Part shown: piece by piece, positions 46,376-49,942 of the stretch | Layout of the letters: each line of letters begins with the position of its first letter | How positions within the stretch are numbered: the stretch's first letter is position 1 | Assembly (NCBI RefSeq): GCF_014224355.1 | Contig: NZ_VNWP01000009.1 | Span: forward strand, 1-64,000 | Direction: 5' to 3' | DNA length: 64,000 bases | Source: Synechococcus sp. BSA11S | GTDB lineage: Bacteria; Cyanobacteriota; Cyanobacteriia; PCC-6307; Cyanobiaceae | Notes under the pieces: generated by a model | Databases searched by the model: none | What the model was told of the DNA's origin: nothing | The model's input: only the letters and a program-made list of their open reading frames with translations | Made by a program: the position numbers and the translations under genes

Positions 46376-47554
46376 TCAGCCGGCAGCCGGGGCCGCGGGC
46401 CGCTCCAGGCTCTGCAACAGCTGGCCCATCAGCAGGGCAATGGCATCAGGGCCACCCAGCGCCGTTCCGCCGGGATCGAGCATGCCGGGGTCGATCGCCA
46501 CCCAGCCGCCGCTGTCGGGCAGGCGCAGCTCGAAATGGAGGTGCGGGCCCGTGCTCAGGCCCGTGCTGCCCACGCGTCCGACCACGGTCCCCTGCTTCAC
46601 CAGTTCACCCTCTTTGACATAGAGCTCCGAAAGATGGCCGTAGAGGGTGCGACGCAGGGGATTCCTATGCTCGATCTCCACCGCCAGCCCATAGCCCCCC
46701 GCCACGCCGCTGCTCACCACCCGCCCGGAAAGCGCTGCCACCACGGGGGTGCCCTCCGGAGCGGCCAGGTCCTTGCCGGCATGCATCAGCCAGCTGCCCA
46801 GAACAGGATGGAGCCGCCAACCGAAGCTGCTGGTGGTGACGGCAGAGCCGATCAGGGGAAAAAGCAGGCGGCGGTTGCCATTGCCGGCCAGGGGCGCCGG
46901 CCTGGGGGTCACTCTGAAGACATCACTGAGACGGAAGCTGCCGCCGGCGCCGGAGAGCAGGGCCGACACGGGCACGGTGATCGGAGGAAGGGGCAGGCCA
47001 TTGCTGCCGAGGCGGCCCATGCCCGCCATCAGTGCGCCGGAGGGCTGGCCGTTGTCGAGACGCTCCGCAGCCAGAGGATTGCGGCCGCGCCAGCGTACGG
47101 ACACACCGGTGCGGCACTCCTGCTCAGAGAGGGCTCCACTGCTGCAGGCCTGCCGGTGGGCAGGCAGTTCGCCGGGTTGCAGAGCACCTGCGGATTCAAC
47201 CCGGTTGCGCTCCGCGGGGGTGACGACCCCCTGACGCACCAGATCATCGAGGGACTGGTCGAAGCGACGGGGACGGGCCTGGGGCACCTGATCGAAACTT
47301 GGCTTCAGTGGCGCGGGGGTGTCATTCGCCAGGCGGGGTGAAGCCAGGGCGCGAGGAGGCGGCGACTGGGGTGGCGCGGCCGGTACGGCAGGAGCCTGGG
47401 CGGCGGCGGGGCCCGGGCGGGGCGCGGCAGGCACAGGCGGTTCAGCAGGGACCCCCAGCTCGGACGGGGGCTGCAGCTGGGCCAGGCCCAGGGGCGTTGA
47501 TGCCATCACCAGGGAGCCCAGCAACAGGCGGGTGTGCCAGGAGTAGCGACGCAA
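46376..47554 (-). CDS. Secreted M23-family metallopeptidase
   Basis: The product from the TTG at 47554 is 392 residues. A signal peptide (T-R-L-L-L-G-S-L-V-M-A-S-T-P-L-G-L-A) is followed by a proline/alanine-rich linker of about 60 residues and a small domain with two cysteines. The C-terminal LytM/M23 domain has zinc ligands H-A-G-K-D and H-L-H-F. M23 enzymes cut peptidoglycan cross-bridges during growth or division. An ATG start near residue 17 would remove much of the signal peptide. Frames extending further upstream overlap birA and are not coding. Confidence 0.88.
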   Translation of the reverse strand: MRRYSWHTRLLLGSLVMASTPLGLAQLQPPSELGVPAEPPVPAAPRPGPAAAQAPAVPAAPPQSPPPRALASPRLANDTPAPLKPSFDQVPQARPRRFDQSLDDLVRQGVVTPAERNRVESAGALQPGELPAHRQACSSGALSEQECRTGVSVRWRGRNPLAAERLDNGQPSGALMAGMGRLGSNGLPLPPITVPVSALLSGAGGSFRLSDVFRVTPRPAPLAGNGNRRLLFPLIGSAVTTSSFGWRLHPVLGSWLMHAGKDLAAPEGTPVVAALSGRVVSSGVAGGYGLAVEIEHRNPLRRTLYGHLSELYVKEGELVKQGTVVGRVGSTGLSTGPHLHFELRLPDSGGWVAIDPGMLDPGGTALGGPDAIALLMGQLLQSLERPAAPAAG

Positions 47555-47637
47555 ACCGAGAACCGTGCGAAACAGATGAAGCTTAGAAAAGCCTGGCGGT
47601 GGGCAGCCACGGAACTGTCTGGCGCTCCAGCGGCCGG

Positions 47638-48399
47638 TCAGAAGCTGCGCCAGAGCAGGGTCCGCTCGCCCGGTCGGCTCAGCAGCAGGCCGCCGTCCAC
47701 GCTCAAGCCCTCCACATGCCAGCGCGCCTGGCGGTGCACCACCCCGTCGGCGGGCACGAGCAAGCGGTGCTCCGCCATGGCGCGCACCAAGTCGGGACTG
47801 GTGCTCCGGAACACGGCCCATTCCAACGCGGCCAGCACCCGGGCCGTCAGGGCAGGCACCCCGCTGGCCAGGGTGCGACGCCCCAGGACCTCGCGCAGGC
47901 TGATGGCCCCGAGCGGCACCCGGTTGCGGCCATTGAGGCCGATGCCCACCCTGGCCAGGCGAATCGTGGTTCCGCGCAGGCTGAGTCGCGGCAGCAGGCC
48001 CGCCAGCTTGCGACCGTCCACCAGCAGGTCGTTGGGCCACTTGAGTTGAACGCTCAGTCCGAGCGCTTCGAGCTGCAGGGCCAGGCCCACCGCCGCCGCC
48101 AGTCCCAGTGCAGCAGCGTTGGCAGAATCCGGCGGCCAGGGCAGCGCCGCGCTGATCCAGACGCCACCCGGCGGGGAGACCCAGGGCCTGCCCCTCTGGC
48201 CATGGCCGAAGCGCTGGCGACCGGCCAGCACCGCCAGAGGTGGCCGCTCGCCCACTGCCAACCGCTGCTCGAGCCGTTGTTCGGTGCTGCCGCAACAGGG
48301 CAGCCAGATCAACCGCCAGGGCAGCGCCGGTGGCCGTGAGGGCTGGGGAGCTTCCCGGGAGCTCAGCTGCAGCCGGGCCGCCTGAATCCGGCCGATCAT
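47638..48399 (-). CDS. birA: Biotin-[acetyl-CoA-carboxylase] ligase, catalytic domain only
   Basis: The 253-residue ligase lacks the N-terminal DNA-binding domain of enteric BirA. The adenylate loop at 65-71 reads G-H-G-Q-R-G-R where the usual form is G-R-G-R-x-G-R. K-W-P-N-D-L-L-V and G-R-K-L-A-G-L-L carry the binding and catalytic lysines. It attaches biotin to the acetyl-CoA carboxylase carrier protein. The two substitutions affect residues that hold biotinyl-AMP in E. coli. It precedes the M23 gene on the same strand with a gap of about 80 bases. Confidence 0.9.
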   Translation of the reverse strand: MIGRIQAARLQLSSREAPQPSRPPALPWRLIWLPCCGSTEQRLEQRLAVGERPPLAVLAGRQRFGHGQRGRPWVSPPGGVWISAALPWPPDSANAAALGLAAAVGLALQLEALGLSVQLKWPNDLLVDGRKLAGLLPRLSLRGTTIRLARVGIGLNGRNRVPLGAISLREVLGRRTLASGVPALTARVLAALEWAVFRSTSPDLVRAMAEHRLLVPADGVVHRQARWHVEGLSVDGGLLLSRPGERTLLWRSF

Positions 48400-48420: not shown

Positions 48421-49635
48421 TCAGTCAGCATCGATGGAGTGCAGCCAGGTGCCGACCCTGCCGGCGCCCGCCTCCAGCTGCTCCACCGGGTGCACCAGCG
48501 CCAACCGCATCCAGCCCTCCCCGCTGGGGCCGAAGCCGTTGCCGGGGGTCAGGGCCACGCCGGTGCCCTCGAGCAGGGCTGCGCAGAACGACTCTGAATC
48601 CAGCCCCCGGGCCCGGGCCGGCTCAGGCAGGCTCAGCCAGAGGTAGAGCGCCATCGAGGGCCGCTGCACCGCCCACCCCTGGGCCTCGAGGGCCGCGGCC
48701 ATCCGGTCGCGGCGGACCCGGTACACCTCCCGCAGCTGCGCCGGCCACTGGGGGGCCTGCTCCAGGGAAGCGATCGCCCCGGCCTGCAGCGCCAGCGACT
48801 GGTTGAAATCCACCACCCCCTTGAGCTGACGCAGGGCGGTGATCAGGGGCTCGGCGCCGATGGCGAAAGCCAGGCGAAAGCCACCGAGGCACCAGCTCTT
48901 CGAGAAGGAGAAGAACTCGATGCCGCAGCTGCGCCAGTGGGAATTGCGCAGCAACGCCGGGGCCTCACCTTCAAGGGCAAGGTCCACGTAGGGGTTGTCG
49001 TGCGCCAGCACGAAGCCATGGCGCTGGGCCCGCTCGACGGCCTGATCCAACCACTCCTGCTCCCCCACGGTGGCGGTGGGGTTGTGGGGAAAGCCCAGCA
49101 CCATCAGTCGCAGCTGATCCCAGGTGGCCAGGGGGATCGTCTCGAAGCGGGGCCGCCAGCCCTGATCGGCGTGCAGGGGCAGCAACGTGGTCTGGGCCGA
49201 GGCCAGGTGAAGCCCACCCCGGTGGGAGGGGTAGTAGGGATCCAGCAGCAGTGCCGACTCGCCGGGGTTGAGGACCGCCAGGGGCAGGTGGGCCGTTCCC
49301 TCCTGGGAGCCCACCAGCAGCAGCACCTCACGTTCGGGATCCACGGCCACGCCGAAGCGACGCTGAGCCCAGGCCGCCACCGCCTCGCGGAACGGCAGGG
49401 TGGCGCCATGGAGGCAGTACGAGGCGCTGCTCGGCCGGCTCAGGGCCGCGGCCATGGCCTCAAGCGCCACGGGCGGTGGAGCCAGATCGGTGGAGCCGAG
49501 AGAAAGATCGAGCAGCGGGGCCAGCCCCCGGGCCAGTTCCGGGTTCAGCAGACCCTGGGCGTAGGCGATCTTGCGGCGGTCGTTGCGAGCGAAGACCCCC
49601 TGCCCAAGCCGGGCGACCCGCTCAGAGATGGGCAT
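48421..49635 (-). CDS. Class I/II PLP-dependent aminotransferase
   Basis: The product from the ATG at 49635 is 404 residues. Fold type I motifs include the Y-P-S-H segment, P-H-N-P-T-A-T-V and the PLP lysine in F-S-F-S-K-S-W-C-L-G-G-F-R. The overall pattern resembles DapL or succinyl-DAP/alanine transaminase-like enzymes, but assignment to one substrate is not possible by eye. Its start overlaps the trxA end by 14 bases, so these genes are probably co-transcribed. Confidence 0.85.
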   Translation of the reverse strand: MPISERVARLGQGVFARNDRRKIAYAQGLLNPELARGLAPLLDLSLGSTDLAPPPVALEAMAAALSRPSSASYCLHGATLPFREAVAAWAQRRFGVAVDPEREVLLLVGSQEGTAHLPLAVLNPGESALLLDPYYPSHRGGLHLASAQTTLLPLHADQGWRPRFETIPLATWDQLRLMVLGFPHNPTATVGEQEWLDQAVERAQRHGFVLAHDNPYVDLALEGEAPALLRNSHWRSCGIEFFSFSKSWCLGGFRLAFAIGAEPLITALRQLKGVVDFNQSLALQAGAIASLEQAPQWPAQLREVYRVRRDRMAAALEAQGWAVQRPSMALYLWLSLPEPARARGLDSESFCAALLEGTGVALTPGNGFGPSGEGWMRLALVHPVEQLEAGAGRVGTWLHSIDAD

Positions 49636-49942
49636 CCAGGAAGGCCTTGAGCTGGGGTTTGGCCATGGCGCCTTCATGGCGAGCCAGTTCCTTGCCGTCC
49701 CGGAAGAGAATCAGGGTGGGTAGACCCTGGATCTTCTGGCTGTCGCGAACGACGGGATTGGGATCGGCCTCGAGCTTGCCCACCGCCAGACGCACGCCGT
49801 ACTCGGCGGCGGCCCAGTCCATCAGGGGAGCCATCAGACGGCAGGGGCCGCACCAGGAGGCCCACACGTCGACCAGAACCGCGCCGGAGGCAGAAAGCAC
49901 GTCGGCCTCGAAGTTGGCATCGGTGAAAACGGCAACGGCCAC
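49622..49942 (-). CDS. trxA: Thioredoxin
   Basis: The 106-residue protein has the thioredoxin fold with active site W-C-G-P-C-R near residue 31 and the conserved cis-proline segment G-L-P-T-L-I-L-F. Size and motif match a classical m-type-like thioredoxin that reduces disulphides of target enzymes. The active-site second proline is present, so it should be redox active. It lies upstream of, and overlaps, the aminotransferase gene. Confidence 0.95.
   Translation of the reverse strand: MAVAVFTDANFEADVLSASGAVLVDVWASWCGPCRLMAPLMDWAAAEYGVRLAVGKLEADPNPVVRDSQKIQGLPTLILFRDGKELARHEGAMAKPQLKAFLDAHL

Follow-up and report, generated by a model that had tools for sequence, protein, structure and literature searches.

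A glutamine at the Arg118 position of a Synechococcus biotin protein ligase and its distribution among cyanobacteria

Arg118 of the Escherichia coli biotin protein ligase BirA is the residue that was altered to make the labelling enzymes BioID and TurboID. In the genome of Synechococcus sp. BSA11S a ligase gene is found within the window (the whole stretch of 64,000 nucleotides analysed here) whose product has no arginine at this position, nor at the position of Arg116 in the same loop. This raises the question whether the gene encodes an unusual ligase that lets its adenylate intermediate escape, as a preliminary description of the locus had considered, or an ordinary ligase of its lineage. 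The analysis reported here points to the latter: the gene is an ordinary ligase for its lineage, and probably a specific one.

Identity of the ligase and its loop

The open reading frame begins with ATG, is open throughout and encodes a protein that scored 107 bits with the NCBIfam profile TIGR00121 (birA_ligase; cut-off 83.1) and 51.8 bits with PF03099 (cut-off 21). A structure model predicted from 68 aligned ligases reached a mean pLDDT of 94.6, and its best fold match was the Pyrococcus horikoshii biotin protein ligase (BPL) 2ejg (Z 26.6, rmsd 2.1 over 222 residues), with further matches to the BPL of Mycobacterium tuberculosis (Z 24.9) and to E. coli BirA (2ewn, Z 24.1). Among the 50 solved BPL entries listed, Z ranged from 21.3 to 26.6, and Foldseek likewise ranked the P. 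horikoshii ligase first. On these profile scores, its active-site residues and a fold that includes the C-terminal part, the protein is a stand-alone biotin protein ligase. In the predicted model about 28 residues, with one helix at 2-15, precede the first strand, which leaves no space for an E. coli-type DNA-binding domain and therefore places the protein in group I. A bifunctional ligase/repressor of group II was rejected, as an N-terminal helix-turn-helix appeared neither in the model nor in a Pfam search of the protein, which matched no DNA-binding family. The closest named relatives (75-78% identity) are those of Synechococcus sp. J7-Johnson, WH 5701 and RedBA-s, and of a Cyanobium metagenome-assembled genome (MAG).

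The translation of the reading frame confirms the loop sequence G65-H-G-Q-R-G-R71 given in the preliminary description, and its assignment of His and Gln to the positions of Arg116 and Arg118 is borne out by multiple and pairwise alignments to the annotated birA of E. coli K-12 MG1655 (our locus L262), which served as numbering reference. In these, G65-H66-G67-Q68-R69-G70-R71-P72-W73 is aligned to G115-R116-G117-R118-R119-G120-R121-K122-W123 of E. coli, so that both arginines of the GRGRXG signature are missing (His66, Gln68). The two arginines are not treated here as defining the family, as the first is absent from the solved P. horikoshii BPL and the second from nearly all cyanobacterial ligases (178/180, see below).

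The rest of the active site is preserved. The equivalents of E. coli Ser89, Thr90, Gln112, Gly115, Gly117, Trp123, Lys172-Asp176, Lys183, Gly186, Gly204, Gly206 and Asn208 are all present in the alignment and, the loop glycines and the tryptophan aside, we take them to be ligand or catalytic positions. The Lys183 column is lysine in 192/192 rows of the oxygenic class, in 31/31 rows of other classes of the phylum and in 58/59 rows of other phyla, the last row being unaligned. Two other differences from E. coli, Lys122 to Pro and Arg235 to Val, fall in variable columns and were given no weight. The loop start GHGQ was found in all nine genomes of the genus, none of which carries a stop inside the match (9/9); this recurrence excludes a sequencing accident. 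The features discussed are collected in Table 1.

Table 1. Positions of the ligase gene, its loop and active-site features, and its neighbours in the window (EcBirA, E. coli BirA)
Feature	Position	Strand	Basis
Biotin--[acetyl-CoA-carboxylase] ligase, group I, 253 aa	47638..48399	-	TIGR00121, PF03099, predicted fold
Biotin-binding loop G65-H-G-Q-R-G-R71 (EcBirA 115-121)	48187..48207	-	translation (codons GGC CAT GGC CAG AGG GGC AGG, 48207-48187), alignments
His66 (EcBirA Arg116 column), variable column	48202..48204	-	alignment, n=180
Gln68 (EcBirA Arg118 column), nearly fixed in class	48196..48198	-	Q in 178/180
K120-W-P-N-D124 (EcBirA KWPND 172-176), intact	48028..48042	-	alignments
Lys131 (EcBirA Lys183), intact	48007..48009	-	alignment
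G152-x-G-x-N156 (EcBirA Gly204, Gly206, Asn208), intact	47932..47946	-	alignment
Short NRVPLGAI, against a longer adenylate-binding loop in E. coli; resembles P. horikoshii NKVPNGAT	47902..47925	-	alignments
Aminotransferase, flanks ligase	48421-49677	-	
M23-type peptidase, flanks ligase	46376-47635	-	

The ligase is the only TIGR00121 match in its genome (profile search, E 0.001), and a redundant second ligase was rejected for this reason. A second PF03099 match (C34, L002) is unmatched by the BPL profile and may be a lipoate-type ligase. With the biotinyl/lipoyl profile PF00364 four matches were obtained in the genome: one in an AccB-like reading frame of 163 aa that carries the biotin motif EAMKL, one of lipoyl type (SDKA) and two partial, which leaves one recognisable substrate. 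The reading frame adjoining the AccB-like one looks, by eye, like elongation factor P. Relatives of the two neighbours of the ligase gene were seen in 73 (aminotransferase) and 72 (M23 peptidase) of 149 loci (L003-L151), a set with roughly 1.5-2 kb of flanking sequence in which some genomes occur twice and many loci come from distant bacteria.

Glutamine and histidine among cyanobacterial ligases

How common the two substitutions are, a point that the preliminary description had left to an alignment of cyanobacterial ligases, differs between them: within the class Gln is near-universal and His belongs to a minority. Matches were found in 9/9, 108/121, 100/101 and 285/291 genomes of overlapping sets. 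From these searches 188 loci of the same class as the window protein were read, some picked for the best scores and others to cover different families, and after removal of eight repeats of the same protein 180 distinct proteins remained, from which the copy of the window gene (L001) and the E. coli locus are excluded. Four genomes (G118, G239, G256, G375; 91 to 100% complete) were without a match to either the window protein or TIGR00121, which may reflect an assembly gap, a broken frame or a highly divergent ligase.

Among the 180 proteins the Arg118 column is occupied by Gln in 178, by Ser in one (L153) and by Arg in one (L301). Gln was also read in 21/21 further cyanobacterial loci, which were counted apart as a biased sample because their scan had used the loop itself as one search word; pooled with them, Gln is present in 190/192 distinct sequences. 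In 31 loci of other classes of the phylum (L225-L227, L229-L236, L238-L257), taken as non-oxygenic on the basis of kinship codes, the column holds 21 Arg, 9 Gln and 1 Ser, and in 59 loci of other phyla, obtained in one scan, 57 Arg, 1 Ser and one unaligned row whose sequence reads Arg. Gln is thus the usual state of the class.

The Arg116 column is far more varied, with 88 Arg, 30 His, 19 Gln, 18 Lys, 10 Val, 5 Ile, 5 Phe, 3 Thr and 2 Met (n=180). All 30 His sit in the window protein's own family of 105 sequences, and the 75 sequences outside this family have 64 Arg, 9 Lys and 2 Gln. The pairing of His with Gln was also seen in 3/31 loci of the other classes. Column 118 belongs to a set of 14 columns with at least 98.5% identity, in which Gln68 is joined by Ser38, Gln62, Gly67, Trp73, Gly78, Lys120, Asn123, Asp124, Lys131, Gly134, Gly152, Gly154 and Asn156. 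A FastTree tree of 269 sequences, built with the loop columns removed and subject to long-branch and composition warnings, requires 2 changes among the 180 in the Arg118 column, compared to 53 in the Arg116 column and 57 in the Arg119 column; L109, which was misaligned in the multiple alignment (its actual loop is GRGRRGR), was omitted from it. Judged from the alignment, Gln68 is kept like an active-site residue, and His66 appears as a tolerated substitution in a loosely constrained column. The other classes of the phylum need 3 changes in the Arg118 column on the same tree and, given their split between Arg, Gln and Ser, Gln may predate the oxygenic cyanobacteria or may have multiple origins.

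A few sequences depart from this picture. In five of the six genomes examined of one cyanobacterial family (f13) Ser occurs naturally at the position of Arg118 (GRGS; L153, L307, L308, L309, L310) and the sixth (L311) has Gln, with L307-L311 lying outside the 180. Ser at the same position was also observed in two further ligases, one from Gemmatimonadales (L090) and one from another class of the phylum to which the window protein belongs (L240). L301, with the loop GRGRRGT, is the only one of the 105 members of the window protein's family with Arg at 118. A literature search found no description of Gln at the Arg118 position in cyanobacteria.

Loss of Arg118 and explanations for the loop

What the loss of Arg118 does has been studied in several ligases. 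In E. coli the preliminary description's account holds: R118G makes the Kd for biotin about 100-fold higher and the dissociation of biotinyl-5'-AMP about 400-fold faster, and the Arg-to-Gly form is promiscuous (PMC9293651). In Aquifex aeolicus R40G is abortive and promiscuous, and L41P alone is abortive in a truncated enzyme (PMC9253107). Builders of labelling tools, who describe the GRGRXG motif as conserved, changed it to GRGGXG in several prokaryotic ligases, the majority of which turned promiscuous, and the P. horikoshii Gly variant labelled most strongly among the new ligases tested (PMC11061317). By contrast, R69A of M. tuberculosis BPL, the equivalent of an Arg118 substitution, is reported to be neither self-biotinylating nor promiscuous, and its affinity for biotin, a result that the authors cite as data not shown, to be near wild type (PMC3048393). 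According to the titles of the entries, P. horikoshii R48A has been crystallised with biotinyl-5'-AMP (2dxu) and with the carrier protein (2ejg). E. coli R118 is also listed among the residues important for homodimerisation (PMC2821413). The contrast between the Gly forms and M. tuberculosis R69A implies that the outcome of removing this arginine varies with the ligase and with the residue put in its place. In the literature consulted, no assay of a GxGQ enzyme or of Gln at the Arg118 position was found.

Observations in living cells are available for two other cyanobacteria than the one studied here. In wild-type Synechocystis PCC 6803 the biotinylated pattern is described as similar before and after biotin was added, whereas that of a TurboID strain was significantly enhanced (PMC12014562). 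Control signals in the same species were hardly detectable on blot and obvious after streptavidin enrichment, and were ascribed by the authors to endogenous peroxidase and endogenous biotinylated proteins (PMC9764255). For Synechococcus PCC 7002 the background level of biotinylation is described as very low, in a control for which no extra biotin is mentioned (PMC7880944). The ligase loop was read here in a further species, Synechocystis salina (L086); it is GRGQ, with Arg116 kept.

On balance we consider the window protein to be functional and specific, a group I ligase whose GxGQ loop is typical of its class (probability roughly 0.8). The preliminary description had instead raised the possibility of an unusual, naturally leaky variant which, lacking both Arg116 and Arg118, would release biotinyl-5'-AMP and label nearby proteins as BioID does. 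The two arginines are indeed missing together, Gln68 agrees with the BioID-type definition of a replaced Arg118, the A. aeolicus R40G and L41P forms are abortive, and the strongly labelling Gly variant belongs to the P. horikoshii enzyme, whose fold is the nearest among solved structures and which likewise carries His at 116. A leaky enzyme is nevertheless quite unlikely: Gln is nearly fixed in the class, M. tuberculosis R69A is reported not to be promiscuous, and biotinylation in the two cyanobacteria is described as very low or as unaltered by biotin. The occurrence of Gln across the class also means that the window protein is neither damaged nor exceptional. Still harder to accept is that selection on the gene has relaxed, leaving a ligase that is redundant or degenerating and whose loop is in decay. 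Variation in the Arg116 column would agree with such decay, but the gene is the sole TIGR00121 match of its genome, its catalytic positions are intact, the match is free of stops in all nine genomes of the genus and column 118 is nearly invariant.

A third explanation shares its outcome with the preferred one, in that the ligase would be specific, but has this specificity maintained in another way; the two are not exclusive. Cyanobacterial ligases may retain the adenylate weakly and without harm, transfer to one carrier outrunning release. The single biotinyl-type domain recognised in the genome is consistent with this, as is the M. tuberculosis BPL, described as more stringent than E. coli BirA (PMC3048393), but the unchanged wild-type pattern of Synechocystis does not require weak retention (PMC12014562). 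We regard this explanation as possible, though doubtful.

Under the preferred reading, that of a working and specific ligase, the enzyme would make biotinyl-5'-AMP from biotin and ATP and would then biotinylate the lysine of the only AccB-type carrier recognised in the genome. The intermediate would be held by the loop glycines, the tryptophan covering the AMP and the active-site lysine and aspartate, with Gln68 standing in for E. coli Arg118. The loop glycines and the tryptophan have been described as covering biotin and AMP (PMC2821413). From the conservation pattern and the comparisons above we infer that the window enzyme is active and specific, and that Gln suffices for retention. The further suggestion in the preliminary description, that the variant may compensate elsewhere in the protein, fits these observations better than leakiness does; a search of the alignment by mutual information with column 118, however, identified no compensating residue. 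The highest-ranking positions were the stretch after GxGxN (N159, V161, P162) and Leu213, in a ranking uncorrected for descent, and since P. horikoshii has the NxVPxGA stretch together with Arg, this stretch is not specific to Gln.

Relation to known ligases and significance

Among the characterised enzymes, P. horikoshii BPL (1wnl, 2dxu, 2ejg) is the most informative comparison: it is a group I ligase with a fold similarity of Z ~26, the short NxVPxGA stretch and, in the wild type, His at the Arg116 position (GHGRLNR), but it retains Arg (R48) at the position of Gln68. M. tuberculosis BPL (4op0, 3rux) is likewise a stand-alone group I ligase (Z ~25), although its loop is GRGRHGR, and E. coli BirA (1bia, 2ewn) shares the catalytic and C-terminal domains and the catalytic residues. 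BioID, BioID2 and TurboID resemble the window protein in having no arginine at 118; unlike it, they are engineered, promiscuous enzymes, with Gly or Ser instead of Gln.

The point of interest is therefore the Gln found across the class at the BioID position, together with the Ser of family f13, while the window gene itself is ordinary. We tentatively suggest that oxygenic cyanobacteria may carry out biotinylation without the arginine credited with locking the adenylate, either by means of a near-invariant Gln in a rebuilt loop or through weak retention combined with fast transfer to one carrier, with Ser occurring naturally in one lineage. The natural Ser of that family is the same substitution as in TurboID. 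The class-wide Gln and the one Ser family offer a ready-made panel of enzymes in which to study the control of biotinyl-AMP retention, and these natural Gln and Ser ligases are possible new starting points for labelling tools.
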